Source: Bacteroidales bacterium
Lineage (GTDB): Bacteria > Bacteroidota > Bacteroidia > Bacteroidales > M50B96
Reading direction: 5' to 3'
Assembly: GCA_021740905.1 (NCBI GenBank)
Contig: JAIOYV010000015.1
Coordinates: forward strand, 1 to 64,000
Length of the DNA stretch: 64,000 nucleotides
Shown here: piece by piece, positions 1 through 54,066 of the stretch
How the letters are laid out: every line of letters begins with the position of its first letter
Numbering within the stretch: the first letter of the stretch is position 1
Position numbers and translations under genes: made by a program
The notes under the pieces: model-generated
Databases searched by the model: none
What the model saw: only the letters and a program-made list of their open reading frames with translations
Told to the model about the DNA's origin: nothing

Positions 1-163
1 TACAAATGTTCGAGTTTGCTAGCCACCAATAGAACGGAACAAGGTATTACTGGTGTAAAGAGCGGTATTGCTGATGTGCTACGAACCGCCGAATACGAGA
101 CCCGTACGTTCGGTGGTGTGAGAGGCGCATCCCGGCTATTTTAGCCGGGGCCGTCTACTCGAT
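1..163 (+). mobile_element. 3' end of a group II intron (domains V and VI), cut by the window edge
   Basis: Positions 90-122 fold as a group II domain V: ACCGCCGAA pairs with UUCGGUGGU over nine base pairs, with a CG bulge and a UACG/CGUA tip helix. Positions 123-163 fold as domain VI: CCCGGCUA/UAGCCGGG with a small loop, a lower GAG/CUC helix and an unpaired A (in CUAC) that fits the branch point. The element ends in AT at 163, the usual AY 3' end. The exon resumes at 164 with TAT in the frame of the downstream repeat protein. One short frame at the left edge stops at 30-32 and could be the tail of the intron-encoded reverse transcriptase, but too little is visible to say. The 5' part lies outside the window. 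Confidence 0.8.
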
Positions 164-1942
164 TATAGCTACACTTCGCCATCGGGTGTGGTGTATACAA
201 ATTCAGGGGTTTATGTAGATACAATCGCAAATGCTGCCGGGTGTGATTCCATTATTTCGATTGATGTAACAATCAATGAGGCCAGTTTCAGCAGCATGAA
301 CGTCTCACAGTGTTACAGCTATACAGCACCCTCTGGAAATATCCTGACCACCTCCGGGACTTACAACGATACGGTCTCCAATTCAGTAGGCTGTGACTCA
401 GTGATTATGATCAACCTTACCATTTATGATCAGTCAACAAGTTCGATTACAATTTCAGAATGTGAAACATATACCTCTCCGGCAGGAAATATCCTTACTT
501 CAACAGGCATTTATACTGACATAATTCCAAATGCTGCCGGTTGTGACTCCATTATTACCATCGACCTTACCATTAACCAAAGCACAACAAACAATTTGGT
601 TGTGGCTGAATGTAGCGGCTATACTTCGCCTTCGGGAATTATTTATACTACATCAGGCAGTTATGTAGATATTATCCCAAATGCAGCCGGATGCGATTCA
701 ATAATTAACATTGATCTATCCATCAACAATACGATTAGTTCAATTACAGCCTCCGAATGTTATAGCTACACTTCATCCTCGGGTGCAGTGTTTACCATTT
801 CCGGAATTTATTCTGATACCATTCCGAATTCGGCAGGGTGTGATTCGATTATTCAAATCGACCTCACCATCAATGACAATACAACCAGCAACCTCATTAT
901 TGCTGAATGTTATAGTTACACCTCTCCTTCAGGAAATATGTATACCACTTCGGGAATTTATTTCGATACCATTCCCAATACAGCAGGGTGTGATTCAATG
1001 ATTGTCATCAACCTGACCATTACGGACAATACTTACTCCAGTATTTCGGCCTCCGGTTGCGGAAGCTATACATCGCCTTCCGGGATGGTTTACGCTACTT
1101 CGGGGACTTATGCGGACACCATTTCGAATTCGGCTGGTTGCGACTCGATTATCACAATCGACTTATCCATTTACGAAGCCACGTCGAGTATCATTTCGGT
1201 TACAGCCTGCGATGCCTATACTTCACCATCTGGAAATACCTGGATAACTTCCGGAACCTATACCGATATTATCCATAACTCGAACGGCTGCGATTCGGTA
1301 ATTACCATCCATCTTACCATCAGCACCGCTACCTACTCGTCGATGAATGCTTTTGAGTGTGGCTATTACGTTGCACCCTCAGGAGCTATTCTTAACACAA
1401 CTGGCACCTATCACGACACAATCTCAAATGCCGGGGGCTGCGATTCCATTATCACTATCAACCTTGTGCTTTCATCGTTGGATTTGACTGTGGCACAGAA
1501 TGGGGCAGTACTTACAGCGAACCAGGGGGGCGGCAGTTTTCAGTGGCTCGATTGTGATGACAATTTTGCCATCATACCGGGTGCCAATTCTGGCACTTTT
1601 ACAGCCACCCAAAACGGGAACTATGCAGTGCAAATAATTTTCGGGAATTGCCGCGACACGACCGGGTGTCTTGAGGTCACCAACATTGGGGTAGACGATT
1701 TGCAATCCCAGTTCTTTGAAGTTTTTCCTGTGCCGGTCGACGACCATATATACATCCAACTTCAACAGAAAGAAAAATCCGCAAGGCTTCAACTATTCAA
1801 TATTGAAGGAAAAGAAGTATTCGGCCAGGTATATTCCGATATTGATAAAATCGATTTTGATTTTCCATTCCCGGCAGGAATGTATCTTATTTTGATTCAA
1901 ACGAAAGATTTTAGAAAGGGGCAGAAAATTATTCAGCGATGA
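164..1942 (+). CDS. Cys-paired repeat surface protein with T9SS type A sorting domain (5' part beyond the intron)
   Basis: The visible part is about nine tandem repeats of roughly 46 residues. Each carries a Tyr/Thr/Ser-rich segment (CYSYTSPSG-like) followed by TSGTYxDTIPN and GCDSIIxIDLTI, so there are two cysteines per repeat that could form an internal disulphide. A non-repeat domain follows (LDLTVAQNGAVL onward), then a T9SS type A sorting domain of about 75 residues (FFEVFPVPVDDHIYIQ to the end). Such repeats occur in Bacteroidota exoproteins and are presumed adhesive; the function is inferred. The open frame extends upstream of the GTG at 188 to the intron junction at 164 and reads YSYTSPSG, an exact continuation of the repeat, so 188 is not a true start. 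The signal peptide should lie in the 5' exon outside the window. Expression needs intron splicing, or else the gene is broken. Confidence 0.85.
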   Translation, partial: YSYTSPSGVVYTNSGVYVDTIANAAGCDSIISIDVTINEASFSSMNVSQCYSYTAPSGNILTTSGTYNDTVSNSVGCDSVIMINLTIYDQSTSSITISECETYTSPAGNILTSTGIYTDIIPNAAGCDSIITIDLTINQSTTNNLVVAECSGYTSPSGIIYTTSGSYVDIIPNAAGCDSIINIDLSINNTISSITASECYSYTSSSGAVFTISGIYSDTIPNSAGCDSIIQIDLTINDNTTSNLIIAECYSYTSPSGNMYTTSGIYFDTIPNTAGCDSMIVINLTITDNTYSSISASGCGSYTSPSGMVYATSGTYADTISNSAGCDSIITIDLSIYEATSSIISVTACDAYTSPSGNTWITSGTYTDIIHNSNGCDSVITIHLTISTATYSSMNAFECGYYVAPSGAILNTTGTYHDTISNAGGCDSIITINLVLSSLDLTVAQNGAVLTANQGGGSFQWLDCDDNFAIIPGANSGTFTATQNGNYAVQIIFGNCRDTTGCLEVTNIGVDDLQSQFFEVFPVPVDDHIYIQLQQKEKSARLQLFNIEGKEVFGQVYSDIDKIDFDFPFPAGMYLILIQTKDFRKGQKIIQR

Positions 1943-8953: not shown

Positions 8954-11900
8954 CTACCTGCCTACTTCCATTTGCTTTGTGCAAACAAAGTCGTTGGCAA
9001 TTAGCCTATAGAAATAAGTTCCCATGGCATATTGGCTGCCATCCAGTTCGATGCTGTGTTGCCCGGCCTGGAATTCACCTTCAGCCGCAACATCCATCAC
9101 ATTGCCCAATACATCGTAAATGGTAAGGCTTATGTTGGATGTTTCGGGGAGGTAAAATGCGATCCGGGTTGTCGCGCCATAAGGGTTCGGAACGTTCTGA
9201 TCGAGCGAATAAGCCATTGCATCCATATTGGTAAAGCTAACCTTATTGGCTATTTGGATGGCATCGCGTTCGTACAGCCCATCGCCTTCAGTCCATGATT
9301 CGATTGTGATCCCCTGCTCCAATTCTCCGTTCCATGTCCGCAGTTCAAAGCCCTCGGCATAAGTGAGGCCATCGGTTTCAGGGGTCAGGTCATCATCGCC
9401 CCAAATTGGGATAGCGAGGTTGCTGCCGTCGAATATGGCACTTCCTACCAGTAGGCCTTGGGAATTAAATACCCCAACTTCATCACCAATCATTGGTAGA
9501 TTTAGGAAGGCCGATGTTGGGAACCCTATGGTCATATTGTTGCCTGTGGCAGCCGGTTGTTGATAAAACATTGGCTGCATTGGCTCAACATTCAGTTTTG
9601 AAGGAACCGAATTAGCCGGGTAGGTAAGGGTAGATGTAGCATTCAGCTTGATCTGGTAACCTTGACCGGGCAGCATATTCCCAATGCCGTTCACTCCAAA
9701 GGCCGGCCAGTACACGGCTCCGCCTCCATTTTTCATGATCGCGATGTTCGACACGATGGGTGACATCATTGCAACTGCATCGCCTGGTACCTGGCGGAGA
9801 TAGGCGATTATGCTCCATCCTGCTGGGATAGTGATCGGTGTAAGCTCAGGTACAACTGCCGTTCCCGTAACAGGTAGCATTGCACTAGCGTTCATCTTAA
9901 CCTGATAACCTTGTCCCAATACGGCATTTCCGATGCTATTTACCCCAAATGCTGGCCAATACACTGCACCTGCTCCATTTTTCACAATAGCGGTGATAGT
10001 TACAACCGGAGCAAATATGGAATCGATCAAAGGTTGAACTGGAATAATGTAGGTTGAGATAATGCTCCAACCTGCTACCAAATTGATATTTTGCACATCC
10101 AATCCGCCTGGCTCGGTAATTTCAATAGTTTCATAAGCAGTGCAACCATTCGAATCGCTAACAGTTACATCGTAGTATCCTGCCATCAAACCTGAAATAT
10201 CCTGGGTCAAGGCCCCGGTCGACCACAGATAGGTGTAGCCCGGGTTGCCACCCGAAACAGTAAGGTCGATGGCTCCATCGGCCCCACCTGCTGTGCTTAC
10301 ATCGGTTTTGGTGTATGTAATAAGCAGTGCAGGAGGTTCAGATACCACATAAGAATTCATATATAGACAGCCATTGGCATCGGTTATGGTTACAGAATAC
10401 GTTCCGGCCACCACACCAATTAAATACTGGCCTGTATATCCATTGCTCCAGTTGTAGGAGTAGGGCGAAATAGCCCCTGTTGGATAAACATACACTTCGC
10501 CATCGTTGCCACCAAAACAGCTTGTGCTAACAACCGTATTAGTGACTGTCAAAAGTGTTGGTTGGTTGATTGTCCAACTTCCTGTAGCAGTACTGCCCAT
10601 AGCATCGGTTACGGTTACAGAATAGGTCCCGGCTATAAGCCCTGCTGGGTCGGCAGATACTGATCCATTGCTCCACAGATAGGAATAAGGAGGTACTCCG
10701 CCACTTACAGTGGAATTGATTTCACCATTGTTCCCACCATAGCAGGTTACATCGGCAGTAAATGCAGTAACATACAAAGTGGGCGCTGATCCATCGTTCA
10801 CCACATAACTTTCAATTTCGGTACATCCATTGGCATCGGTAACCGTGAGTGTATAAGTCCCTGCTATGAGGTTATAGATATTCTGAGCATTCGATCCTGT
10901 GGACCAGGCATAAGTATAAGGTGATGTTCCTCCCAGTGCATAGGTCGAAATCCATCCGTCGTTGCCACCTGCTACGGTAACATGGTTGATGTTCTCGGTG
11001 ATGTAAACTGCCGATGCAGGCTGACTGACGAAATAAGTATCATTATCAGAACATCCGTTGGCATCGGTAACCGTGAGACTGTAAGCGCCCATTGTTAAAC
11101 CTGAAATAGAATTTCCAGTGCCACCATTGCTCCAATTATAATAATAAGGCGCAGTTCCTCCCGAAACAGAGGCCGATAATGAGCCATCGTTTCCACCATA
11201 GCAACTTGCATTGGTATAAGAGCCAACAATAACAATTTGAGCCGGTTGGTTGACAGTAAATGACGCATAAGCCACCTGACTGTAGAAATCGGTTACAGTT
11301 ACTGTGTACACTCCTGCCCCAAGGTTATTCTGATCGATGGCTGCAGAGCCATTCGACCAAAGAACGGTGTATGGATTAGAACCACCATTGATGGTCATGT
11401 CAATAGCACCATCGTTGCTACCATAGCAGGACGCATCGGTAACAATTCCTGACAAGCTCATAGAACCCACTGTTCCGTCAAGTACGGTGAAGCTTTGGGA
11501 GTTGCCACAACCATTGCTGTCCATTACTGTCAGCACATTAGTACCAGCCATTAAACCTGTAATGGTTGGTGTGGTTTGTCCACCTCCCCAACTATAACTA
11601 TAAGGTGGTGTACCACCACTTGCAGAAGCTGCAATAGAACCATCGGAGCCTCCGGCTAAAGTGACATTGGTAACTGTACCTGTAATGCTGATTCCGGTAG
11701 GTTGTGAAATTGTTTGTGTCCCGGTTCCGGTACATCCATTGGCATCGGTAATGGTAACCCAATAAACCCCGGCTATAATGTTTGCCCTGTCCTGTGTAGT
11801 TGCACCATCATTCCATAAGTAGAAATAGGGTGATGTGCCTCCGCCTACGGTAAGATTAATCGTACCATCAGAGCCACCGTAGCAAGTTACATTTGTTTTT

Positions 11901-14900
11901 GTATAGGCTTGGGTAAGTACCGATGGTTGTGTAATAGTTCTACTTCCGGTTGCAGTGCATCCGTTTGCATCGGTTACGGTAACTGAATATGTTCCGGCTG
12001 TCAGGTTTGTCCTGTCCTGGGTCGTTACCCCACCATTCCAAAAATACGTGTAGGGAGTCGTTCCACCCGTTACGTTCATATCTATGGATCCGTTTGAACC
12101 TAAGAAACAACTCACATTGACAGAGGTAAACCCAACAACAACATAAGTAGAGGGTTGTGTTATGGTTTGTGTGCCTGAAGAAGTACAACCATTATAATCT
12201 GTTATGGTAACCGTGTACACACCTGCAGAAAGGTTTGTTCTGTCCTGGGTGGTAGGACCATCATTCCAAAGATATGTATAAGGTGTAGTTCCCCCACTTA
12301 CGGTTAAGTTAATTGCACCATTCGAACCACCAAAGCAACTCACATTTGTTTTTACAAAGGATTTGGCGATGGCAGAAGGTTGTGTGATGGTCCATGAGTT
12401 TGTGACAACACACCCATTTGCATCGGTACAGGTCAGCGAGTAAGTTCCTGAAGGAAGATTAAATTGGTCTCCGAGAGTACTCCCATTGCTCCAGAGGTAG
12501 GTATCAGGGGGAGTGCCTCCCCATAATGAGATATTAATGCCTCCATCGTTTCCACCATAGCAACTTACATCGGATGTTAAACCACTAACATTATACACTG
12601 CCGGTTGAGTAACCGTAAAGCTATTTGTAACCTGAAGCCCATACGAGTCGGTGGTTGTGAGTGTATAGGTGCCAGCAGTAAGGTTTGACCGGTCGCCTTG
12701 GGTTGCCCCATTGTTCCAAAGGTAGGTATAGCCGGGAGTTCCTCCTGTAACTGTAATATCGATGGCACCGTTGCTCCCACCATTGCAGGAAACATTGGTG
12801 GTTACTCCGCTTACAGAAAGATTGGTATTCCAAACTACATTGTTGTTCGGATCATAATCGAATGCTTCTCCTGCAAAGCTGCCCATGTAATTCATCATGG
12901 TTACTGTACCTGCACTTGTGCCTTTTCTTACGTTATAGGTGCTGACCCCCTGGCTTGGGAAATTGGCATAGTTGATTGTGAAATTCTGAGTGTTTTCTAC
13001 ATCAAGCAATGCTCCGCCTGATTGCCCTGGCAAGAAAGTACAATGGTTAAAAGAATGGCTGGTATTTACAAAACCACCAGTCCAGATATAAACTCCCCAG
13101 GTGTCAACGCCTGAGAATGATGCCCATTCGGCAGAAACAGTTCCTCCTGAGAAACAATTGAATTGCCAGTAGTTAGCATCGTTGGATTCGAGCACTGCCA
13201 GGTGGCCTTCGGAACCAATCGCTTCAAATACGCCTCCTGAGTTAATGTTCAGATGACCTGAACTACCTATATTCAATTCAGAATCATCATCCATATTAAA
13301 CTCTCCTGAGCTGTTTATAATAACATCACCAATAACCCTGATAAGGTTGCCATCGGCCCATAAATGGCCATAATTGATGGTCAAGTCGTGGTTGTTCAAA
13401 ATGATTAAATCTGAATTTAGGTTTACCCCACCACTCAAACTTGTGGAATTGATAACCACATCTCCAAAGTAACCGGAATATCCCACTTCTTCGAGATATT
13501 GGGTTGAACTGCCTTCGAAATGTACGGTTGCATCGTAGGCAAACCAGGCGCCACTGGCAGCTACTGTCAGGTCTCCTTCCAGATAATAATTCTGGCCGGT
13601 ACCCACATCAATCCAGTCGCCACTTGTAATTGTCAGGTCACCAGTTACCCGGAAGCCATCGTAGATGTTTAAGTTTGACTGGTACGTTTTGTCGACTATT
13701 AAATTTCCGAATTCAACTTCTGTTGAAGATAGGTTGAGAGCCTGATCGCCAGTGCCATTGAAAGTGAAATCGTTACTCAGATTCATTTCTGACAAGCCTA
13801 TTACTGTGGTGATTATGGTATTGTAATCGGTCAAGTTGCCGCCAAGGAATACTTCAGTGTAGAGGTCATTGGCATTGAAACCGGCTCCGTTCTCAATAAT
13901 CAGGTCGTTGTCGATTGTCATAATTGAACTTGGATCCATTTCATAAGTGCCATCAATAACATGCAAGCTGCCTTGTAAACAATGAACACTTTTTCCGGTT
14001 GCTTGCACCACACCATCGAAATTAGCATAGGTCTTGTCAATTACCAATTCATCAAAATCCTCATCGGTGTAGATGTTAGAAGTGTTTGGACCGTAGAAAC
14101 ATACCACGTCATCGTATTCGTAAAAATTGTATGTATTACCATTGTTTGTCCAGTCACCACCCACATAAAGGGTGTCACTTGGGGCGGCAAGGATTCCACC
14201 ATCAATAAGTACATCATTGCTGATTCTTACTGTATTTGTATTGCAATCGACCATTCCGGATGTCTTGTTAACATGCAAGTTATACAGTGCCGATCCCTGG
14301 TAGCCCATGTTAAGGAAAGAGGTAGCATTTGATCCATAGAACTCCAGTGTGCCTCCTGCCGGTGCCCATTCATCATATACCGAAAAACTGTTGGGAGTGC
14401 GTATTGTCCCTCCGGTAATATTAGTAGTTAGCGTGTAGGATGAATTATTAATGTAAATACTTCGGTCGATAAAGTCGAGCACTCCGTTACTCATCGTGAT
14501 GGAAGCATTTGCATAGTAAGGCCAATAGCTATCGATCGCACCTCCATGCACATTCATTGTTCCATTGGTAATATTTATTGTTCCGTTTAAATCAATATAA
14601 CCGCTTGCATCCTGGGTAATATCGAGTAATCCATAGGGACCGGTGACTTTAAATGTGCCATACAGGCCATTCTCCGCAAGGTCGCCCACATATATGCTTC
14701 CATTATAAGCTTCGATGGTCCCGTACAAGTATAATCCAAGTACTGATGAACCCATGTCAAGATCATCAATATTTACTTCCACACCTGAATAGTAGGCATT
14801 AAAATTACCGGCAAGGCCTAAAAACATATTGTCGATATTCACGTCGTGGAAAGCAAAGGCATTGCCATAACAGTAATAATTGTTGGTTATATTGGTGAGC

Positions 14901-17900
14901 CCATAGAAAAGCACGTTTGATCCTCCAGAGTTATGTTGAAAATCATAGAATGTTTCACCATAACAATACTGGTATCCACTGCTTCCATTAAATATTACTT
15001 TTCCGACTTGTTCGTAGAATCCGAATGTGCCAGATTGGTTGGTCCAGTCTTCGCCAACTGTGATTGTTAGATCGTTGCAATCGAAGTTGCCAGTTTCAAT
15101 AAATACATCACCTTTAACTACCAGTGAATCGGAATAGGTATTACCTAAGCCAAGACTATTGCCAGTTCCCACATTGATTCTTAAATTATTGAAATAGTCG
15201 CCAACATTCGGTTTTAGTGTAATAGTAGGATTACCGGCAAATTCAACAGTTCCAAAATTTGCTAAAAAATGGCCCCCGACATTGTTGAAAGAGCTATTAA
15301 AAATCACTTTCTCAGAAGAATAAATATTGAAAGCTGAATAGCTATAAATATAAAGGTCTCCATTTATTACAAGGTCTTCTCCCGACAATGCGCTTACACC
15401 GATATATGCGCCGCCGGTTTTAGCAGCATATATTTTATTGAAATAGCAATCGGCTTCGTAACTTCTGATATAAGCTGTTGTTGCACCAGTAAACCATACA
15501 TTACCATTTGTCATATGCACATTGGCTCCAAATTCAAAATTCCAGTCACCAGATACACGGAATTCACCATTAGCAACCATGTTGGCTTGAGAACCTGACT
15601 CCCAGATGATGTCGTTGCAAAACAGGTCGGCATTGTCGTCATACATCCTGATCGTTCCGTTTACAACAACGTTCTCTTCAACTGTGAGGTCATAAGCACC
15701 AATGTGTAAAGTAGCCCCACTTTCTATGGTAACATTCTTTGCACTGGCATTGGCCACATATACATAAGGGCTGTAAGTTGTTCCTGATGGGATTACTACA
15801 TCGGTGGTTGCTGTTGGAACAGTATTGTCGTTCCAGTTTCCGGCTGTGTTCCAGTTGCTCGAAACATCGCCTTCCCACAAACCTGCCACTGTCGTTTCTG
15901 AATTTATTGTCACCGATGCTGAGTTTGCATCGTTGGACCAGATAAGAAATCCATAATAGTCGCCACCAGGTATGGTTACAAAGAATGTTTCATTTGCTGT
16001 TCCACTGTTAGTAGATCTGGCCAGGTAGTCATTCCTGTTCAGGTAGTAAGGCCCGCCCCCATAGGAGCTAAACAGGGCCATGTCGAGGTTGGCACTTCCA
16101 GAATTATAATTCATAGTGAATTTATACGTGCCGGCAGCAAGGTAAATATCCCACACTTCCACCACATCATTGGCTGTCCAACTATGAGTTTGAGATACAC
16201 CCAATGTAAGAGATTCTGTTCCTCCTTCGTATTCGGTACGAGCTGTGGCTGTTCCCGAAAATTGATAGCATTGTACACCCCGTGTAGTATTACTAAGGTG
16301 ATGTTGGTCGAACAGAATGAAATCGTTATCAACAGTATAAGCTGATGCTATTGCCTCGGTGGCAAAGGTATTGCTGGTGTACATTTTTATGCTCCAGTTG
16401 TCAGCTGAGCGTATACCTACAGCACCCCATTTTGAGTTGGTATTATTAATCTGATAATAGGTAGGGTCTGTAGTAGTATTAACAGCAACATCATCTGATA
16501 GGGTAACAATGGAACCGCCCGTGAAAAACTTTAAATTACCCCAGCTTCCGTCGGATGCAATAAGAGTTCCTCCACTCGAATACATTTCTATTTTAACCCT
16601 TCCTTGAGATGAGCTTAACCCGCTTGGTATTGTCCATAAATAGGAGCCGTCGCAAGGTGTATTTGCAATAATTGTAGTAAAAGTTGAACCAGCATTGGTC
16701 GAATACAATAACTTACAATACGCTCCTGAATACGTATCGTAGCTCCAGGTAATTTCATACACATTCCCTGAGTAGAGGATTTCGCCATTTCCATTGTGAT
16801 TATAGGCAGGATCACCTTGGGGCGTAAGAATTTCGATATGCGAACCGTAAGCACCACCAGGATAGATTTCCGAAATTCGATAGTTAAGTGTGTAATTCCA
16901 CCAGTCGTTTGGTGGGTCCCATGTATTATGAACGATCATAAAATTATCACTACCAATAACCTCATACCCTATTGCTGTCATTGAATGGTTGTCTACACCA
17001 CAATGCCAGGGACGGTTGGCGTTGATTTCGCCTATCTGCTGGTTCCATTTTGCAGTGCTTGTCCCAAACGAATAAAAGGTGGTTGTTTGTGAAAAATTAT
17101 ACGAACCACACATAGCCGAATTGGCAGCGTCAACTACACCCGGCCCAATAGCATTTGATCCAGTACTTCCGGTGCTATAATTTGTCCCCATTTGTATGGC
17201 ACATGCCTCCTGTGAAGTTGTGATATTATAATCAGGACCGCCATTTCCCGATTCGTAAAAGTGGTGTTTTGTTAGGTTTCCATAGTCATTCGAGGAGTAA
17301 TCGCTGTAGTTGTCCCAATAATCTAAAAGCATACCTCCGGCTGTCGGGCTACATCCATAGTGCCAGTCTAAAAACGGAACACATTCTTCCTGATAAGGAA
17401 TATATGTGGCGACTTGAACATTTTTTGTCTGATTTTCAGTTAAAAAATAATCCCAGTTTTCTTTTATACTCATTGGTATAACTTTGTTGATATCAAAATT
17501 ATCAACATACTCAACCTGGAATTCGGCAGGAGACAAAACCCTGGCCGGTGGAAAAATCCGTACATAAACCGATTCGTTGCCCGAATCGAACTTGTAGTAT
17601 TTTAACATAGGCGTTTGAAAATAAATCTTGTCTAAAACCGGCGTGCTCTTTCCTGTAAAAGAACTGGCAGCCATTTCACGAATTTCGTCATAAAAGGCAT
17701 ATTCATCGCTCATGGCAGCAATAAACCGCACTAATGAAGTACGATCGAGGCTAGTGCCAAAAATACAGTGTGCATACTCGTTAACTCCCCATCGTTGGTT
17801 TTTTGACATACTTTCGTTGTCCAACTCATTCTCTCCAAGATTAGTGGGGCGTCCTTCTTTTGGAAATTCTTTGCCGATGGCATAGTTAAACCCATAAGCA

Positions 17901-18091
17901 ATGACGTTTCCCGAAGGATCGTAATAAGGTATTGGTTCGGCTGCATCGACGTTGCCCCATCGCTGGTCGGCAAATCTATCGGCGGCCTCTTTCAGCTGTT
18001 CAATAGGAATAATGTCGCGCTTCATGTTCTGGGCGCTCACAGAAATTCCTATGCAAATACTTAAGATTAGTAATAAATTCTTCATAATCAT
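8954..18091 (-). CDS. Giant secreted papain-like protease, beta-solenoid, SprB-repeat, T9SS protein (3045 aa)
   Basis: Domains in order: signal peptide (1-20, SVSAQ); a propeptide-like region resembling the C10 inhibitor/propeptide (20-210); a papain-fold cysteine peptidase (about 235-420) with C247 in WHYGCSPTAGG, H369 in DNHSMTAIGYE and N389 in HNTWD; an Ig-like domain (430-530) and a PPC-like domain (to about 700). Then comes a long beta-solenoid opening with WEGDVSSNWNTAGNW (about 720-1740), 12 SprB repeats (about 1755-2665), two copies of an 80-residue GWSII/YWPAFGVN module (about 2675-2840), and a T9SS type A domain ending in FVCTKQMEVGR. The catalytic residues are intact, so proteolysis is expected, with surface attachment via T9SS and adhesion via SprB. 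Start may be the second ATG (18085), matching the paralogue at 23499. C10 versus C39-like family is uncertain. Confidence 0.85.
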   Translation of the reverse strand: MIMKNLLLILSICIGISVSAQNMKRDIIPIEQLKEAADRFADQRWGNVDAAEPIPYYDPSGNVIAYGFNYAIGKEFPKEGRPTNLGENELDNESMSKNQRWGVNEYAHCIFGTSLDRTSLVRFIAAMSDEYAFYDEIREMAASSFTGKSTPVLDKIYFQTPMLKYYKFDSGNESVYVRIFPPARVLSPAEFQVEYVDNFDINKVIPMSIKENWDYFLTENQTKNVQVATYIPYQEECVPFLDWHYGCSPTAGGMLLDYWDNYSDYSSNDYGNLTKHHFYESGNGGPDYNITTSQEACAIQMGTNYSTGSTGSNAIGPGVVDAANSAMCGSYNFSQTTTFYSFGTSTAKWNQQIGEINANRPWHCGVDNHSMTAIGYEVIGSDNFMIVHNTWDPPNDWWNYTLNYRISEIYPGGAYGSHIEILTPQGDPAYNHNGNGEILYSGNVYEITWSYDTYSGAYCKLLYSTNAGSTFTTIIANTPCDGSYLWTIPSGLSSSQGRVKIEMYSSGGTLIASDGSWGNLKFFTGGSIVTLSDDVAVNTTTDPTYYQINNTNSKWGAVGIRSADNWSIKMYTSNTFATEAIASAYTVDNDFILFDQHHLSNTTRGVQCYQFSGTATARTEYEGGTESLTLGVSQTHSWTANDVVEVWDIYLAAGTYKFTMNYNSGSANLDMALFSSYGGGPYYLNRNDYLARSTNSGTANETFFVTIPGGDYYGFLIWSNDANSASVTINSETTVAGLWEGDVSSNWNTAGNWNDNTVPTATTDVVIPSGTTYSPYVYVANASAKNVTIESGATLHIGAYDLTVEENVVVNGTIRMYDDNADLFCNDIIWESGSQANMVANGEFRVSGDWNFEFGANVHMTNGNVWFTGATTAYIRSYEADCYFNKIYAAKTGGAYIGVSALSGEDLVINGDLYIYSYSAFNIYSSEKVIFNSSFNNVGGHFLANFGTVEFAGNPTITLKPNVGDYFNNLRINVGTGNSLGLGNTYSDSLVVKGDVFIETGNFDCNDLTITVGEDWTNQSGTFGFYEQVGKVIFNGSSGYQYCYGETFYDFQHNSGGSNVLFYGLTNITNNYYCYGNAFAFHDVNIDNMFLGLAGNFNAYYSGVEVNIDDLDMGSSVLGLYLYGTIEAYNGSIYVGDLAENGLYGTFKVTGPYGLLDITQDASGYIDLNGTINITNGTMNVHGGAIDSYWPYYANASITMSNGVLDFIDRSIYINNSSYTLTTNITGGTIRTPNSFSVYDEWAPAGGTLEFYGSNATSFLNMGYQGSALYNLHVNKTSGMVDCNTNTVRISNDVLIDGGILAAPSDTLYVGGDWTNNGNTYNFYEYDDVVCFYGPNTSNIYTDEDFDELVIDKTYANFDGVVQATGKSVHCLQGSLHVIDGTYEMDPSSIMTIDNDLIIENGAGFNANDLYTEVFLGGNLTDYNTIITTVIGLSEMNLSNDFTFNGTGDQALNLSSTEVEFGNLIVDKTYQSNLNIYDGFRVTGDLTITSGDWIDVGTGQNYYLEGDLTVAASGAWFAYDATVHFEGSSTQYLEEVGYSGYFGDVVINSTSLSGGVNLNSDLIILNNHDLTINYGHLWADGNLIRVIGDVIINSSGEFNMDDDSELNIGSSGHLNINSGGVFEAIGSEGHLAVLESNDANYWQFNCFSGGTVSAEWASFSGVDTWGVYIWTGGFVNTSHSFNHCTFLPGQSGGALLDVENTQNFTINYANFPSQGVSTYNVRKGTSAGTVTMMNYMGSFAGEAFDYDPNNNVVWNTNLSVSGVTTNVSCNGGSNGAIDITVTGGTPGYTYLWNNGATQGDRSNLTAGTYTLTTTDSYGLQVTNSFTVTQPAVYNVSGLTSDVSCYGGNDGGINISLWGGTPPDTYLWSNGSTLGDQFNLPSGTYSLTCTDANGCVVTNSWTITQPSAIAKSFVKTNVSCFGGSNGAINLTVSGGTTPYTYLWNDGPTTQDRTNLSAGVYTVTITDYNGCTSSGTQTITQPSTYVVVGFTSVNVSCFLGSNGSIDMNVTGGTTPYTYFWNGGVTTQDRTNLTAGTYSVTVTDANGCTATGSRTITQPSVLTQAYTKTNVTCYGGSDGTINLTVGGGTSPYFYLWNDGATTQDRANIIAGVYWVTITDANGCTGTGTQTISQPTGISITGTVTNVTLAGGSDGSIAASASGGTPPYSYSWGGGQTTPTITGLMAGTNVLTVMDSNGCGNSQSFTVLDGTVGSMSLSGIVTDASCYGSNDGAIDMTINGGSNPYTVLWSNGSAAIDQNNLGAGVYTVTVTDFYSQVAYASFTVNQPAQIVIVGSYTNASCYGGNDGSLSASVSGGTAPYYYNWSNGGTGNSISGLTMGAYSLTVTDANGCSDNDTYFVSQPASAVYITENINHVTVAGGNDGWISTYALGGTSPYTYAWSTGSNAQNIYNLIAGTYTLTVTDANGCTEIESYVVNDGSAPTLYVTAFTADVTCYGGNNGEINSTVSGGVPPYSYLWSNGSVSADPAGLIAGTYSVTVTDAMGSTATGSWTINQPTLLTVTNTVVSTSCFGGNDGEVYVYPTGAISPYSYNWSNGYTGQYLIGVVAGTYSVTITDANGCLYMNSYVVSEPPALLITYTKTDVSTAGGADGAIDLTVSGGNPGYTYLWSTGALTQDISGLMAGYYDVTVSDSNGCTAYETIEITEPGGLDVQNINLVAGWSIISTYIIPVQPLIDSIFAPVVTITAIVKNGAGAVYWPAFGVNSIGNAVLGQGYQVKMNASAMLPVTGTAVVPELTPITIPAGWSIIAYLRQVPGDAVAMMSPIVSNIAIMKNGGGAVYWPAFGVNGIGNMLPGQGYQIKLNATSTLTYPANSVPSKLNVEPMQPMFYQQPAATGNNMTIGFPTSAFLNLPMIGDEVGVFNSQGLLVGSAIFDGSNLAIPIWGDDDLTPETDGLTYAEGFELRTWNGELEQGITIESWTEGDGLYERDAIQIANKVSFTNMDAMAYSLDQNVPNPYGATTRIAFYLPETSNISLTIYDVLGNVMDVAAEGEFQAGQHSIELDGSQYAMGTYFYRLIANDFVCTKQMEVGR

Positions 18092-23498: not shown

Positions 23499-26400
23499 TT
23501 ATCTCCCCACCTCCATCTGTTTTGTTTCCACAAAATCATTTGCAATCAAACGATAAAAATAGGTACCGGTAGAATAATTTTGGTTATCCATTTCTACTGT
23601 ATGATTTCCTGCCGGGTATGAACCTTTGGCAAGAACCTCGATTTCATTACCCAGAATATCAAACACAGTGAGTGTAATTTCAGATTCTTCGGGTAGGAAG
23701 AACGAAATCCGGGCATTTGCGCTGAACGGGTTCGGGATATTTTGATAGAGCCTTATAGCTGTCAGTTCAGATGAAAGACTTGCAAGTTTGCCTACAATCT
23801 GGATGCTGTTTTCTTCATACTGGCCATTGCCTTCTGCCCAGCTTTCAACCGAAACTTGCTTTTCCGATTCACCATCCCAGATGCGAATGCTATAATCATT
23901 TCCGATTATCAAACCATCTGGTTCCGGGGTCAGGTCATCATCACCCCATAATGTAATGGCAGTGTTTCCACCTGTGTATACCCCGGCTCCAACCAATAGT
24001 CCGTGGCTATCGAACACACCTATTTCGTCGCCCATCATTGGGAGTGCATCAAAGGCAGTTTCAGGTATGCCCAGAGTCATGTTGTTGTCGGTGGGTAGAG
24101 GCAGGGCATAATATACCGGTTGTTGTGCTACCATGTCCGATTTGGATGATACCGAATTGGCCGGGTAAACCAATACCGATGCGGCTGTGAGTTTTATCTG
24201 ATATCCTTGCCCGCTTTGCATATTGCCAATCATGTTTAAACCGAACGATGGCCAGTAAACCGAGCCAGAACCATCTTTTAATATGGATAAATTCGACACG
24301 ATAGTTGACATCATTGTAACAGCATCGCCCGGCACTTGTCGCAGATAGCCAATCAAGCTCCAGTTATTGGGAATGGAAATGGGGGTGCTCTCGGGGGAAA
24401 CGGCCGAGCCTGTAATGGCAAGGGTTTGAGCCGAATTCATTTTCACCTGGTAGCCTTGTCCTATTATCATGTTGCCAATCATATTGAGATTAAAAGAAGG
24501 CCAGTATACTGCACCCGATCCATTTTTTACGATGGCAGTGTTTGCGACAACTGGCGCAAATACCGAATCGACCAAAGGATATATGGGAACAATATAGGTC
24601 GACATCAGGCTCCATCCCATTGGCAAGCTGATGGTTTGTACATCGAGCCCGGCTGGCTCGGTTACTTCGAAGGTTTCGTAGGCCGTACATCCGTTGGAAT
24701 CGATTACTGTGAGATTATAAAAACCTGCCGACAAGCCGATGTTATCTTCTGTTGTTGCCCCGTTCGACCAATTGTAAAGGAATGTTGGGCTTCCTCCTGA
24801 AACTGTGATATTAACGGCACCATTCGATCCACCGGTCATCGTCACATTTGTCACTGTTCCAGAAATGGATAGTAATGCAGGCTGTGTGATAGTCCGGCTA
24901 CCTGTGATAGTGCATCCGTGGCTATCAGTGATGGTAACTGTATAGGTTCCGGCTGGAAGGTTGATCCTGTCTTGCGAGTTGGCACCATTGTTCCAAAGAT
25001 AAGTGTAGGGTGAAGTGCCACCATAAACGGATAAATCGATTGACCCGTTTGATCCTCCGAAACAACTCACATTGTTGGATGTAAATGAAAGGGATAGGGC
25101 AAAAGGCTGGGTAATAAATGCCGAACCGCTTGCTGTACATCCATCGGAATTGGTAACGGTAACAGTATAATTCGCGGAAGCCAAACCTACACGTGATGCT
25201 GTTGTTGCACCATCGTTCCAACTATATGAATAGGGTGGTCCATAGGATGGATAAACCTGTATTTGTCCATCGTTATTTCCATTGCAACTTATATTGGTTG
25301 TGCTAATTGAAAGGGTTAATGGAGCGGGTTCGATAATCGTGGCAGATCCACTGCTATTACATCCATTGGAATCTGTTACCGTATATGTATAGGTTCCGGC
25401 AGACAGCCCGGGACGATAGGCTGTTGTTGCCCCATCGTTCCAGGAATAGGTATATGGGGCAAATCCATTGGAAGGATAAAGGTGGATTTCTCCATTGTTA
25501 GCCCCATAACAGGAAATATTTGTTGATACCAAGGTAACTTCAATGGCTGATGGTTGGCTTATCGTGTGACTGCTTATAAATGTACATTCGTAAGAATCAA
25601 TCACAGTTAGTGTGTAAGTTCCTGCCTGAAGATTGGAGATGGAACTTGTAGTTGCCCCCGTCGACCATAAAAAGGTATATCCGGGAATGCCCCCATAGGC
25701 GCTGGCATCTATTGATCCATTGCTTCCGCCAAAACAGGAAACGGATGAGGATGTAAATGATACTCCAAGTATAGGAGGTTCAATGATCTCATAAGAACCA
25801 GAAATTTCAAGCCCAAAAAGATCTGTTACTGTAACAGCATACATGCCAGGTCCCAGATTCGACCGGCTGGCAGCCGTAGCACCATCTGCCCACTGGTATG
25901 AATATGGCGTTGTGCCACCAGAAGGGGACATGTCAATTGTCCCATCGTTATCGCCATTGCACGAATAATTGATAATTAATGCACCAATTTGATAATCGGA
26001 CCACCAGTCTACCCGGTTGAAGTAGTCGGCATCATACGTTTCGCCTGCAAAACTCCCGAGATAATTTACAAATGTTACCTGTCCCCAATCATTGGGTTTT
26101 GATACATTGGCTCCTGAGGCACTCGGGAAATTGGCATAGTGTACTGTCAGATTCTGAGTGTTATCAATACTAAGCAAAACGCCATTGGGTTGTCCGGGCA
26201 AAAAAGTACAGTGATTGAAAGCATGTGCAGTGTCAACTATCCCTCCGGTAAAAATCTGGACTCCATAACTATCAACGCCCGAAAAAGTGGCCCATTCGGC
26301 AGAAACATAGCCTCCTGGAGCACAGGTGAATTGCCAGAAATTGGCATCGTCCGATTGGAGCATTACTTCGTGGTTTTGAGATCCTGATAATTCCAAAGTG

Positions 26401-29400
26401 GCTCCCCCAAGAATATCCAGATATCCACCCAGTCCAATTTTCAATTCTGAGTCGTCGTCCATTGAGAGGGTGCCATCATCATGGATCACAAGATTACCTG
26501 CCAGCCTGATGAGATGGCCATTTGCCAAAAGATAGCCATTGTCGATGGTGAGGTGATGGTTATTGGCAAAGATCATGTCGGTAAATAATTCGATGCCAGC
26601 TTGTGGTACGGTCTTGTTTATTGTCAAATTGCAAGCTATGGGATACGGAGAATAATTCTCAAACCTGCCCGAATTGCTGCCTTCAAAATGAAGGGTGCCG
26701 GTGCCATCCATCCAATAGCCCAGGTTGCTGACAAAAAAATCTTCTCCGATATAGTATTGCGAAGTAGAAACATAATCATCCCATTTTCCTCCCTGAAGGA
26801 TCAGGTTTTTATGTACCGTGAATCCCTTGTAATTATAAACCGTTGAGTTCGCTGGCTTATTTACCACTATTTCCTTAAAATTTACATCCGGACACGAGAG
26901 ATGAAAATCCTGATCGGTGGTCCCGGTAAAATGGATGGATGCCGAATCAGCAACTATTCCAGCATTGCTATTAATAGCAATATTGTAGTCGACAAAGTCG
27001 CCCATTATATCAATGATTGAAGAACCTACGTGAAAATGCAGCCCTGTTCCTGATTCAATGGTAAAATTTCCTGAAATCGACAACAGCGTAGAATAACCTG
27101 CACCATAATAGCCTTGACTAACGTGCATATCCTCTTGTACCACAATGCTTGTATTGTTTGATTGTATGGCCCAATTAGCGTTCCCGTAAATATTCGTTTG
27201 TTTAAGAATACTCAATGTGTAAAATTCTTCATTTTGAGTGATATAGGTAGGATTTTGACCATCAAAATAAACGGTACCCGTTCCTTCGTTAAAGGCAGCT
27301 GTTCCTGCATTATTTGTCCAATTTTTACCAACATACAGGGTTGGCGGGGCAATTAATATGCCTCCATCAATAATAACATCCCCACTGATCCGGGTGGTTG
27401 TGGTATTGCAATTTACCCATCCTGAAGTTTTGTTTACATGCAGGTTGTGGATTGACGAAGCTGTATTATTGATGGAAAGGTTGGAGTTGGCTGAACCATA
27501 AAATTCAAGGGTGCCGCCACCGGGATTGTAAATATCGTACACCGTGAAATTTTTAGGGGTACGGATTATCCCTCCTGTGATATTCGTTGTCACCGAATAG
27601 TTCGGCATATCGTAAATGGAGATATTCACATCCTGCACATCCAGAACGCCGCCCGACATTTGAAGAACAGCATTTCCACCGTATCCAATATCGCAGGTAA
27701 GGCCACCGTGCAAAACCATTGCTCCATCAGTTATGTCCAGGGTTCCGTTGATGTCGAGATATTCGCCTGAACCGGTTCCCTGCGTAATATCTATCAAGCC
27801 TGTTGCCGTGTGCACATCGAAGGTTCCGTACAAGCCATTTTCTTCTACATCGCCTACATAAATCTGACCTCCGTTGGCTGCCAATATTCCATAAAAATCA
27901 AATCCCAATAACGTAAAGCCCATGTCGAGGTTGTCGATAGTGGCCGCGCAGCCTGCATTTGCAGTGAACCTGCCCAATGAGTTTAAGTATAGGTAATGGA
28001 TGTCCATGTCTTCGTTTGCCCAGGTAAAGCCATTGCAGAAAAAGCCATTGGTAACGGTGGATTGCCCTTCAAAATATAAGAAGGACGCATCGGGTGTCTT
28101 GGCTACATCGTAAAATGTTTCGCCGTAGCAATATTGGGTAGGCCCGGTTCCATTGAAAATCACATACCCGATTCCTTCAGAAAAACCATACGTCCCGACA
28201 TAGTTCAGCCAATTGCCTCCTACGGTTATTGTATTGCTGTTGGAATATAATATACCACTTTGTATGGTCAGGTTTCCTTTTACCACCAACGAATCGGAAT
28301 ATGCATTATTCATATCGAGCCAGGTGGAAACGTTCACAATCAGGTTGTTGAAATAATCTCCAATATTGGGTGTCAGGTCTATTGCCGGATTGCCACCAAA
28401 CTCAAATGTCCCGAAAGCACAAAAGTAATGTCCATTGTTGATGAGCGAACCGTAAGTTGTAATTTTTGCCGGTGAGTAGGAGCCGAAGGTAGAACCGGCA
28501 TAAATCGTTATATCTCCGTTAATGGTCAGGTCGCTGGAAGAAGAACTGGACAAGGCAATAAAACAAGCCGATTTCTGACAGATGACATTATTGAATGAGC
28601 TGTTGGCCGAATTGTTTACAATGTAGGCACTGTTGATGCCCGAAAACCAGGTGGCCCCATTTGTCAATTGCACGTTGGAGCCTGGCTGAAATGTCCAGCT
28701 TCCATAGATATGAAATTCGCCGTTTGCCAGCATATTGACAGAGGAACCCGATTCCCAGTAAATATCGCTATAGCCATACAAATCGGCATTGGCGCTGTTC
28801 ATGGCAAGGGTTCCGAATATATGAACATCCTGTTGCACATCCAGGTCGTATTCGCCAATGGTAAGGGTGGCACCCGCCTGAAGGAGTAGCGATTTTGCAT
28901 TGGCATAATTGGTATTGATATACGGGCTGTACAATGTACCTGCCGGGATAATTACATCCATAGTCGATGTAGGTACAAAATTTCCTGCCCAGTTGCAGGG
29001 TGTATTCCAATCCGAAGAACAATCGCCTTCCCAAATCCCGGTTGTCAATTGCTGGGCGAGGATGGTTACATTGGCCGAATTATTACCATTGTTCGACCAA
29101 AGCACGAAACCATAGTAGTCGGCATTGCTGATGATGACACTAAAATACTCATTGACGGTTGAGGTTTCGGTTGAACTGGCAATATATTCGCTCCTGTTTT
29201 GATAATACTGTCCGTTGCCCGAACTAAATAAAGCCATGTCTAAGTATGCCCCATACGTATTGTAATTCATAGTAAATTTGTAGGTTCCAGGGGTAAGATA
29301 AACATCCCATATTTCCACAATTTTTCCGGCAGGCCATGCAAAGGTAAGGGGCGTTCCAACTGTTAAATACTCATTGTATCCTTCGAACTCCGTTTTGGCC

Positions 29401-31256
29401 GGATACGAACCAAAGGACTCGTACACTTCTACCCCTCTGTAATCAATAGGTAAATGATGTTGGTCGAAAACCACAAAGTCCACCTCAGTTTGTGCAGCAG
29501 AAGTCACAGCTACCGAAGGAAAATTGTTTGTTGAATAAAGGTCTAAATCCCAGTTACCCCACAAATAATTATCGGACCTGACGCCCACTACGCCCCACGT
29601 TGAATAAGGATGGAGAAGTTGATAATACGTGGGATTGGCTGTGGTATAAACAACCAAATCTGATTCAAGCAAGGTCATCCCGCTCCCGGTGACGAACGAA
29701 AAATTCCCCCAGCTTCCATCTGAGGCAATCAGGGTTCCTGTGCTGCTATAGACTTCGATTTTTACCCGTACGGTGGATGAAATCAAGCCTGAGGGGACAT
29801 TCCATAAGTAAGAACCATCGTTTGGGGTGTTTGAATCTATCCAATTTAAAGTTGTATATCCATCGGTAGTGTAATAAAGCTTGCAATATGATCCGGCATA
29901 GAATTTATAGTTCCAGGTTATTTCCCACACATTTCCCGAGCTTACCACTTCGCCATTTCCATTGTGGTTGTAAGCCGGGTCGCCATTGGGGCTGGTGATT
30001 TCAACATAAGAACCATATTGTCCACCTGGCGTAATGAAAATGAGCCTGTCGATTTGGGTATAGTTCCAATGATCATCGATGCCCGAGTTCCAGGTATTGT
30101 GGACCCGCATCATGGTATTGGAGCCAATTGTTTCGTATCCAATGGCAGCCACCGAGTGTCCGGGGATACTTGTAATGCAGGGCCTGCTATTGTCGATTTC
30201 CCCTTTAAATAAATTCAGTTTTGAGGTATTTCCGCCTACTGAATAAGAGGAGGAAGTCCATTGAGAAAAACTATAACTGCCGCAATTTGTCGAATTGGCT
30301 GCGGCAGCAATGCCCGGGCCAATATCGTCTTCGTCGGTATTTCCATCCGAGGGGTCGGTGCCCATATAGAGGTAACACGCATGTTGTGCGGTGCTTACAT
30401 TGTAGTCCGTCTCGGCCTGGACCGGGTCGTAGCGCTGGTAATGGTATTTCGACAGGTTGCCGTAATTATAGATCGAATATTTGGTGTAATTGTCCCAATA
30501 TCCAAGTATCATTCCTCCAGCTGTTGGGCTGCAACCAAAACTCCAGTCGAGGTATGGCATTTCTGAAGCATAAGGAATATCGACTGCTGAGTTCGTGCTC
30601 TTTAACGAATTTTGTTCACCCAAATAATACTCCCAGGCACCCGGTTCGGCCTTAGGAATTATTGAATCGATGTTGAATTTGGAAACATATTCTTCCTGAA
30701 ACTCTGAAGGGGAAAGGACTTTTTTCGGTGGAAATATCCGCACATAAACCGAACTTCCATTCGAGTCGTATTTGTAGTATTTCAACAGGGGGCTGTAATA
30801 ATAAATTTTATCGAGCACCGGCGATTTTGCACCCAATACTTCTGAGGCCATAGTCTCAATTTCATCTGCCAAAGCATATTCATCCGATAAAGCGTTGATA
30901 TATCGAATCAGGCTAATTCGTTCAAGGTTATTGCCCATTACCAGATTGGCATATTTGCCATTGCCCCACTGTTCCTCGTGCGAAAGATTGTTTTCCTCCC
31001 CTTGCACTTCAACACGCAAACTTTCTTTCGACGGAAAATCTCTACCCAAAGAATAATTGAAACTGTATGCCACAATATTATCGTTGGCATCATAATAGGG
31101 GATGGCCTGTGCAGCTCCAACTTGGCCCCATTTGCTTTGCGCAAAATGATTGGCTGCCTGTTGTAATTTATTTAGTGGAATGATTTTGCTTTGGTGCTTT
31201 TGGGCAAAGGCGGAAACCCCAATGAATAGACACACTAGCAAGAATAGATTTTTCAT
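23499..31256 (-). CDS. Giant secreted papain-like protease, beta-solenoid, SprB-repeat, T9SS protein (2585 aa)
   Basis: Paralogue of the 3045-residue protein with the same order: signal peptide (1-19), propeptide-like region (20-200), papain-fold peptidase (about 230-415) with C242 in FGCSPTAGG, H367 in PGHSVAAIGYE and N387 in HNTWN; Ig-like and PPC-like domains; a beta-solenoid opening with WEGDCSSDWNTPCNW (to about 1745). It carries six SprB repeats (about 1760-2195) instead of twelve, then the twin GWSL/YWPSF modules and a T9SS type A domain ending FVETKQMEVGR. The difference in length from its paralogue comes mainly from the SprB count. The catalytic triad is intact. A typical Bacteroidota secretion substrate; the protein target is unknown. 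Confidence 0.85.
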   Translation of the reverse strand: MKNLFLLVCLFIGVSAFAQKHQSKIIPLNKLQQAANHFAQSKWGQVGAAQAIPYYDANDNIVAYSFNYSLGRDFPSKESLRVEVQGEENNLSHEEQWGNGKYANLVMGNNLERISLIRYINALSDEYALADEIETMASEVLGAKSPVLDKIYYYSPLLKYYKYDSNGSSVYVRIFPPKKVLSPSEFQEEYVSKFNIDSIIPKAEPGAWEYYLGEQNSLKSTNSAVDIPYASEMPYLDWSFGCSPTAGGMILGYWDNYTKYSIYNYGNLSKYHYQRYDPVQAETDYNVSTAQHACYLYMGTDPSDGNTDEDDIGPGIAAAANSTNCGSYSFSQWTSSSYSVGGNTSKLNLFKGEIDNSRPCITSIPGHSVAAIGYETIGSNTMMRVHNTWNSGIDDHWNYTQIDRLIFITPGGQYGSYVEITSPNGDPAYNHNGNGEVVSSGNVWEITWNYKFYAGSYCKLYYTTDGYTTLNWIDSNTPNDGSYLWNVPSGLISSTVRVKIEVYSSTGTLIASDGSWGNFSFVTGSGMTLLESDLVVYTTANPTYYQLLHPYSTWGVVGVRSDNYLWGNWDLDLYSTNNFPSVAVTSAAQTEVDFVVFDQHHLPIDYRGVEVYESFGSYPAKTEFEGYNEYLTVGTPLTFAWPAGKIVEIWDVYLTPGTYKFTMNYNTYGAYLDMALFSSGNGQYYQNRSEYIASSTETSTVNEYFSVIISNADYYGFVLWSNNGNNSANVTILAQQLTTGIWEGDCSSDWNTPCNWAGNFVPTSTMDVIIPAGTLYSPYINTNYANAKSLLLQAGATLTIGEYDLDVQQDVHIFGTLAMNSANADLYGYSDIYWESGSSVNMLANGEFHIYGSWTFQPGSNVQLTNGATWFSGINSAYIVNNSANSSFNNVICQKSACFIALSSSSSSDLTINGDITIYAGSTFGSYSPAKITTYGSLINNGHYFCAFGTFEFGGNPAIDLTPNIGDYFNNLIVNVSTWLDMNNAYSDSLVVKGNLTIQSGILYSNSNTITVGGNWLNYVGTYGFSEGIGYVIFNGTGPTQYCYGETFYDVAKTPDASFLYFEGQSTVTNGFFCNGFTWANEDMDIHYLYLNSLGRFTANAGCAATIDNLDMGFTLLGFDFYGILAANGGQIYVGDVEENGLYGTFDVHTATGLIDITQGTGSGEYLDINGTLDITDGAMVLHGGLTCDIGYGGNAVLQMSGGVLDVQDVNISIYDMPNYSVTTNITGGIIRTPKNFTVYDIYNPGGGTLEFYGSANSNLSINNTASSIHNLHVNKTSGWVNCNTTTTRISGDVIIDGGILIAPPTLYVGKNWTNNAGTAAFNEGTGTVYFDGQNPTYITQNEEFYTLSILKQTNIYGNANWAIQSNNTSIVVQEDMHVSQGYYGAGYSTLLSISGNFTIESGTGLHFHVGSSIIDIMGDFVDYNIAINSNAGIVADSASIHFTGTTDQDFHLSCPDVNFKEIVVNKPANSTVYNYKGFTVHKNLILQGGKWDDYVSTSQYYIGEDFFVSNLGYWMDGTGTLHFEGSNSGRFENYSPYPIACNLTINKTVPQAGIELFTDMIFANNHHLTIDNGYLLANGHLIRLAGNLVIHDDGTLSMDDDSELKIGLGGYLDILGGATLELSGSQNHEVMLQSDDANFWQFTCAPGGYVSAEWATFSGVDSYGVQIFTGGIVDTAHAFNHCTFLPGQPNGVLLSIDNTQNLTVHYANFPSASGANVSKPNDWGQVTFVNYLGSFAGETYDADYFNRVDWWSDYQIGALIINYSCNGDNDGTIDMSPSGGTTPYSYQWADGATAASRSNLGPGMYAVTVTDLFGLEISGSYEIIEPPILGVSFTSSSVSCFGGSNGSIDASAYGGIPGYTFLWSTGATTSSISNLQAGTYTLTVIDSYECTFISSHTISQPSAIEVTLVSTNISCYGANNGEIHLYPSNGFAPYTYSWNDGATTAYRPGLSAGTYTYTVTDSNGCNSSGSATIIEPAPLTLSISTTNISCNGNNDGQIQVYPSYGPPYSYSWNDGATTASRVGLASANYTVTVTNSDGCTASGSAFITQPFALSLSFTSNNVSCFGGSNGSIDLSVYGGTSPYTYLWNNGANSQDRINLPAGTYTVTITDSHGCTITGSRTITQPALLSISGTVTNVTMTGGSNGAVNITVSGGSPTFLYNWSNGATTEDNIGLSAGFYNLTVIDSNGCTAYETFEVTEPAGLDVQTISLPMGWSLMSTYIVPIYPLVDSVFAPVVANTAIVKNGSGAVYWPSFNLNMIGNMIIGQGYQVKMNSAQTLAITGSAVSPESTPISIPNNWSLIGYLRQVPGDAVTMMSTIVSNLSILKDGSGSVYWPSFGLNMIGNMQSGQGYQIKLTAASVLVYPANSVSSKSDMVAQQPVYYALPLPTDNNMTLGIPETAFDALPMMGDEIGVFDSHGLLVGAGVYTGGNTAITLWGDDDLTPEPDGLIIGNDYSIRIWDGESEKQVSVESWAEGNGQYEENSIQIVGKLASLSSELTAIRLYQNIPNPFSANARISFFLPEESEITLTVFDILGNEIEVLAKGSYPAGNHTVEMDNQNYSTGTYFYRLIANDFVETKQMEVGR

Positions 31257-31560
31257 AACAACTCCTTTTTTATTTTAAGTGGAATCTTCGAAAACAAACT
31301 CAAAGAAAACCAGAAATTTTTCACTCCCTAATTCTATATTGGTCTGGAATTGATTTTACAATTGAAAAATATGAGTTTGAGCTAAGCAAAAAACCAAAGG
31401 TACGGATTTTCTGAATTCAATTTTGGAAATGTAAATCTATTTCGTTGAAACACCAGAAAATTTTCAGGCTTCAAGAATTAAAATCGCCTAAACCACCCGA
31501 AAGGATTTCCTGAAATACGGGACAAGCTGTGCGGTATATACTGTTTCCCATGTTTTAGCG
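31257..31560. other. Upstream region of the 2585-aa gene with a dispersed repeat
   Basis: AT-rich leader of the giant gene. Positions 31490-31538 (ACCCGAAAGGATTTCC...ACGGGACAAGCTGTGCGGT) match the element found inverted at 18786-18836. No gene is seen. Confidence 0.45.
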
Positions 31561-31729
31561 AACTTAGCGAAGCGTTCTCATGAACACAAAAGATATATTG
31601 TCTGTGAGTAACTTAGCGAAGCGGTCTCACGAACACAAAAGATATATTGTCTGTGAGTAACTTAGCGAAGCGGACTCATGAACACAAAAGATATATTGTC
31701 TGTGAGTAACTTAGCGAAGCGTTCTCACG
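31561..31729. repeat. 49-bp tandem repeat (three full units plus a partial fourth)
   Basis: Units start at 31561, 31610, 31659 and 31708. Each begins AACTTAGCGAAGCG, has a variable CTCAYGA segment, then GAACACAAAAGATATATTG and TCTGTGAGT. Units differ at only a few positions around the GTTCT/GGTCT/GGACT segment; the fourth breaks off after about 22 bp. No open frame runs through it. Confidence 0.9.
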
Positions 31730-31746
31730 ACCAAAGGGAGTAACTT

Positions 31747-31851
31747 ACCGCCATATATGAGATACGTAAGTACGGTGGTCCCGACTTTGAGTGCGGGATA
31801 AATGGAGAGAGGCGCACCCGGGCTATTTTAGCCGGGGCTGTCTACTCGGTT
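31747..31851 (+). mobile_element. Group II intron tail relic 1 (domains V-VI with a 24-nt insertion)
   Basis: A domain V-like helix (31747-31755 with 31771-31779, one mismatch) is followed by CCCGACTTTGAGTGCGGG (31780-31797), a small hairpin absent from the copy at 1-163. Domain VI (31804-31851) retains CCCGGGCTA/TAGCCGGGG and the CTAC branch-site motif. No intron 5' part or reverse transcriptase is nearby. Confidence 0.7.
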
Positions 31852-31869
31852 GTTCGGTTGTACTTTTAC

Positions 31870-31905: not shown

Positions 31906-31995
31906 TTTTTCAATTTTTACTATTGTTGATTGCCGATTCTTTTTGGTTCGTTGAAAAACGGCAATAAAAACGGCGGTTTTGCTGATACGTTGCGA

Positions 31996-32099
31996 ACCGC
32001 CGTATACGAGACCTGCACTACGGTGGTCCCGACTTTCAGCACAGGGTAAATGGTGAGAGGCGCATCCCGGCTATTTTAGCCAGGGCTGTCTACTGGATT
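31996..32099 (+). mobile_element. Group II intron tail relic 2 (domains V-VI with the same insertion)
   Basis: ACCGCCGTA pairs perfectly with TACGGTGGT (32019-32027), as in a functional domain V, although the tip helix is degraded. The inserted hairpin CCCGACTTTCAGCACAGGG follows (32028-32046), then domain VI (32052-32099) with CTAC near its 3' end. The preceding 20 bp (GCGGTTTTGCTGATACGTTG) align with the intron at 31-84. Confidence 0.7.
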
Positions 32100-32115
32100 A
32101 GGCGTATAATATGAA

Positions 32116-54022: not shown

Positions 54023-54066
54023 ATTCAAAAAGTTTAGTTAAAATATATAATTTACATCTACGATTT

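Follow-up and report, generated by a model that had tools for sequence, protein, structure and literature searches.

The window analysed here, the first 64,000 bases of contig C46 in the genome of a Bacteroidales bacterium (G000; 6.54 Mb in 160 contigs, an assembly 97% complete with 1.75% contamination), opens inside a group II intron that interrupts a gene whose product appears, judging from its sequence, to be a repeat-rich surface protein secreted by the type IX secretion system (T9SS) of a Bacteroidota-like bacterium. We propose that this intron, which lacks an open reading frame (ORF) of its own, probably inserted recently at a cysteine codon of the gene's repeats, and that its splicing would restore a complete protein of 1409 amino acids. 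Given that the window start is the contig start, the intron is cut off by the contig end, and this copy is assembled only as bases 1-222, on contig C110, and as the segment from the end of domain 4 (D4) to domain 6 (D6) on C46. An earlier note on the window had proposed that a group II intron ends here exactly at a codon boundary inside a repeat, and that interpretation is supported; it had not foreseen the ORF-less state, the failure to detect a reverse transcriptase (RT) of group II type in the genome, the IIC-attC-like family or the shared D4 hairpin described below.

A complete group II domain 5 (D5) with its D6 occupies window 84-163 and ends at position 163, where the note had placed the boundary. 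An Rfam scan of the window at gathering threshold gave no match, and the domain V check proposed in the note returned an end-to-end match of Intron_gpII (RF00029) to this segment with 37.4 bits (E 5.8e-6 over 400 bases), below the gathering score of 40. D5 and D6 fold at −42 kcal/mol, compared with −26.5 (sd 3.5) for shuffles (z −4.4), and none of 200 shuffles was as low. When the window copy was aligned with seven D5-D6s from relatives, 96.3% of cells in these eight introns paired and 12 of 30 pairs were compensated, a result matched by 0 of 500 shuffles, with the window copy carrying a private compensated D5 pair (U-A to A-U, columns 17/35). The D5 triad stands in the context ACCGCCG with its second base in a G-U wobble. 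A bulged branch A seven nucleotides from the intron 3' end and a 3' end of RAY form (CUCGAU) are as expected of group II introns. This D5-D6 is also the best in the genome (101 bits versus at most 85 for 12 other copies).

The missing 5' half was located by a DNA search of the genome, in which repeats resembling those of the window were found on C110. Read on the reverse complement of this contig, the exon ends in ACA GAA TGT and is followed by the intron, GTGTGCCCTGCATGAGC; its start, GTGTGCCC, also present in relatives, stands directly after the Cys codon and fits GUGYG (GTGTG). The note's expectations of an upstream exon ending in a TGT Cys codon in the same repeat frame and of a GUGYG intron end were thus borne out. 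On the other side, the bases after 163 (TAT AGC TAC ACT TCG) continue the CYSYTSPSG repeat in frame with the ORF ending at 1942, without a stop across 592 codons. Joining the two halves at the intron boundaries gives, as the note had anticipated of splicing, a single open frame of 1409 amino acids with no shift and a T9SS tail, whereas the unspliced frame meets a stop after four intron codons (VCPA). The junction reads ATEC|YSYTSPSG and leaves the 50-amino-acid repeat period unbroken, Cys-to-Cys spacing being 49 amino acids on one side and 50 on the other, as between the gene's other repeats. That the junction falls in phase 0 has a 1-in-3 chance and carries no meaning alone. Since the intron sits exactly between two repeat codons, the full protein would be made only if it is excised from the message. 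The 5' exon carries LamG (PF13385) plus repeats and begins with a sequence that looks, by eye, like a signal peptide; the sorting domain, for which PF18962 and TIGR04183 both score above their cut-offs, is encoded only in the 3' exon and is lost unless the intron is removed. Four other phase-0 TGT|TA[TC] sites in the same gene all lack the intron. Related genes elsewhere are 25-42% identical. No empty site came to light; the three genomes sampled from the bacterial family belong to other genera.

All eight RT-bearing relatives have a conserved D4 leader ahead of their RT ORF, which in L064 is split over two frames; the end of the ORF overlaps D5 (EPLYTRPVRTVV) in six of the eight. In the window copy this leader runs straight into D5, indicating an ORF-less intron; in the frame in which the relatives' RT terminates there is a TAG at 20-22, and the RT/maturase ORF in D4 that defines the RT-bearing retroelement form is absent. 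Of the two upstream features on which the note had made its reading depend, an intron 5' end and an RT, the first was found and the second was not: no RT lies in this intron, and searches of the genome detected no RT of group II type. The genome's only RVT_1 match (L021, C141:34399-35106; 56 bits) was considered as a helper RT and rejected, for it has no GIIM domain and scores 102.7 against the TIGR04416 cut-off of 300. This 400-aa reverse transcriptase adjoins another ORF. Its motifs resemble, we presume, those of diversity-generating retroelement RTs.

Relatives in the same bacterial order share the intron ends and carry an RT of ~440 amino acids in D4, and the two RTs tested both pass TIGR04416 and GIIM. 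Their junctions read NTGT|T, mostly inside attC-like GTTRRRY, and a conserved ACA(G/T) in domain 1, the exon-binding site 1 (EBS1), can pair over 3-4 bp with TGT in 14 of 14 of their introns with a readable site; EBS1 of the present copy lies in its unassembled part, so the ACA-TGT pairing is read from these relatives. The CGC triad that serves as a criterion of group IIC (PMC7923331) is present in the window D5. Triad, NTGT|T/GTTRRRY sites and ACA EBS1 fit group IIC-attC as listed in PMC7923331, and we therefore regard the intron as IIC-attC-like, an assignment that rests on triad, junction and the relatives' sites. It resembles S.ma.I2 and related IIC-attC introns (PMC7923331) in the triad, in TGT|T insertion, and in the short EBS1-IBS1 (intron-binding site 1) pairing, the attC-like sites and the RT size of its relatives. 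Unlike them, it has no RT and lies in a protein-coding repeat, where ATGT|T keeps TGT|T but GTTATAG is not attC, in place of TTGT|T within attC. A weak hairpin lies upstream of IBS1; weighed as a possible insertion target against other parts of the gene, it is not unusual (its 80-nt fold falls in the gene's lowest 19%, its 60-nt fold does not). The copy on C56 (L011, intron start on the reverse complement) lies in an attC-like site, GCTAACGGCACTGGCTATGGCAAGTGCGGG...CCCGCATTTGCTATAGCTGATAT, and its 5' junction reads GATAT|GTGTG without the usual TGT.

At the position of the RT, just before D5, ORF-less copies carry a hairpin with a near-invariant GTGnAAAGAG loop. Its stem, compared over 13 ORF-less copies from 11 genomes, has 91.2% of cells paired and seven of nine pairs compensated, with a covariation of 0.652 versus 0.275 in shuffles that none of 500 reached. 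The D4 alignment comprised 8 RT-bearing and 4 ORF-less introns; the hairpin is found in six complete ORF-less introns (the G000 row being a composite of the C56 copy up to window base 36 and the window thereafter) and in none of the eight RT-bearing ones, nor in L065, a near-copy of L063. Besides G000, ten related genomes have ORF-less copies that share it. Among draft genomes with this form, G000, G171, G130, G072, G086 and G287 gave no GIIM match and G119 only broken or partial ones, while G143, G337, G343, G049 and G168 have an open match; G116, a candidate for the form, shows strong matches to the intron tail and no GIIM match. Draft assemblies often lack repeats, so such RT absence is weak evidence. 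A single origin of the form was rejected on the ribozyme core (p-AU of the tree grouping these introns, 0.0026), in an analysis whose free tree lacks any well-supported branch and whose G000 row is composite. With the ORF-less introns ungrouped by the core, the hairpin may have been present in the ancestor, passed between introns as a module or arisen more than once.

The most likely course of events is that an ORF-less intron was mobilised in trans and, not long ago, entered a Cys codon of the repeat; the 5' halves on C110 and C132 differ at 1 of 222 bases, indicating recent movement. IBS1 (TGT) would pair with EBS1 (ACA), attack after TGT by the bulged A157, or by water, would be the first step, and the second step would join TGT to TAT to give all 1409 amino acids, including the sorting signal at the C-terminus. 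Without splicing, a protein of ~821 amino acids lacking the sorting domain would be made. The intron ends, the D5-D6 structure, the exon frame and register, the RT-less D4 and the relatives' family and site preference are directly supported; the linkage of the two contigs, trans mobilisation and splicing in the cell are what we infer. The ORF-less TeI3 introns of Thermosynechococcus elongatus are a model for mobilisation in trans by a related RT (PMC2882425), and the present intron likewise would be a spreading copy with the ORF deleted from D4. However, TeI3 shows one shared deletion in one genome that retains the driver RTs, whereas the form described here occurs in eleven genomes with a shared hairpin and a single clade is rejected.

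Several points weigh against the explanation proposed here. RVT_1, GIIM and relative's-RT searches of the assembly found no group II RT/maturase, only fragments (a short C-terminal piece on C17 and, on C56, an N-terminal piece that contains a stop); the genome's other intron copies are either decayed or incompletely assembled; positions ~223-623 of this copy, including EBS1, are unassembled; and, if the insertion is recent, the intactness of the 3' exon does not prove splicing. It is thus possible, though distinctly less probable than the reading above, that a recent ORF-less copy with no maturase left does not splice and simply disrupts the surface gene, the 221 of 222 identical bases leaving too little time for 3' exon decay. 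By contrast, the intact D5-D6 with its private compensated pair argues against such a dead insertion, RT-bearing introns are repeats that may be missing from a fragmented assembly, and C.te.I1 of Clostridium tetani, an RT-free ORF-less intron in a surface-layer gene, is able to self-splice (PMC3919590, PMC4424553).

Physical linkage of C110 and C46 would span an assembly gap of ~400 nt, if this copy is built like the one on C56 (786 nt in total), which represents D1-D3 beyond base 222. The ends of C64 and C56 overlap window 1-87 and 1-36 perfectly, giving C46 more than one possible left neighbour, and recombination between intron copies or mispairing by assembly coincidence could mean that the gene halves are no longer neighbours. 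We consider this very unlikely, because C110 and C46 each supply the other's missing half in frame and in repeat register, their repeats are 52-60% identical (the closest in the genome, versus at most 43% for other genes), and the 5' flanks of the C132, C56 and C64 copies are not repeat-coding.

C.te.I1 is the nearest precedent for the ORF-less intron proposed here to restore the protein by splicing, likewise with a shorter protein from unspliced message (PMC3919590). The two differ in that C.te.I1, which was examined by RT-PCR, uses a shifted 5' site and splices to four alternative 3' exons, whereas the window intron, known from sequence, has one 3' exon and a canonical GTGTG and is, unlike C.te.I1, IIC-attC-like in family. 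A splice-gated switch, in which partial splicing would serve to make both a secreted and a truncated form, has been proposed for the C. tetani gene, most of whose transcripts are unspliced (PMC3919590). For the window intron it is very improbable despite the same arrangement (ORF-less, no RT, surface gene) and the confinement of the sorting domain to the 3' exon, since no alternative 3' exons were seen, the other D5-D6 copies on C46 are 30 kb away with most long ORFs in between on the opposite strand, and recent insertion speaks against an evolved switch.

Features of the intron, the split gene and the intron remnants (window coordinates unless stated)
Feature	Position	Strand	Description
3' part of intron D4	1..83	+	corresponds to leader preceding RT start in relatives, here joined directly to D5
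D4 hairpin of ORF-less form	44..71	+	9-bp stem (one mismatch here), loop GTGnAAAGAG
Domain 5	84..117	+	catalytic triad CGC; helix 85-93/109-117; Rfam, fold, covariation
Domain 6	118..161	+	bulged (branch) A at 157; Rfam, fold, covariation
3' splice junction	163..164	+	CUCGAU|T; exon begins with T, like those of relatives (TGT|T)
5' exon	C110, L033:223-2673	-	817 aa
3' exon	164..1942	+	592 aa and stop codon; repeats, ending in the T9SS type A sorting domain
Por_Secre_tail (T9SS type A sorting domain)	1721..1933	+	PF18962 30.2 bits; TIGR04183 29.9 bits
Decayed D5-D6 remnant	31777..31856	+	same family, insert between D5 and D6; R1 28.9 bits
Second decayed D5-D6 remnant	31988..32104	+	R1 32.0 bits

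Three decayed D5-D6 remnants with a CCCGACTTTCAGTACGGGATAAATG-type insert between D5 and D6 lie at 31740-32104 and 34950-35042 of the window, and similar remnants occur on C64, C79, C10, C132 and C69; in several, ATGTTTTAGAG, which resembles the relatives' exon sequence, abuts D5. Directly upstream of the first remnant, 31560-31740 holds a tandem-like repeat of ~57 bases (ACTTAGCGAAGCG...GAACACAAAAGATATATTGTCTGTGAGT), and similar pieces also turn up within or close to other copies of the intron (C64, L069). The window further contains very long minus-strand ORFs at 8954-18091, 23499-31256 and 41093-54028 (3045, 2585 and 4311 aa).

An ORF-less intron sits in a surface gene with no group II RT detected in its genome, and five more draft genomes with the same form gave no maturase-domain match. 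One could tentatively extend this to an ORF-less IIC-attC-like form, widespread in this bacterial order, that lives without resident RTs, is marked by a D4 hairpin exchanged as a module, and gates a T9SS surface protein by splicing, although we hold this broader idea to be rather doubtful. Rfam scores the window copy below its threshold and RT-based searches miss such introns, so the shared hairpin offers a handle for finding them. The single gene described here gives an unambiguous readout of whether the intron is removed, and so makes it possible to test splicing in the absence of a resident maturase.
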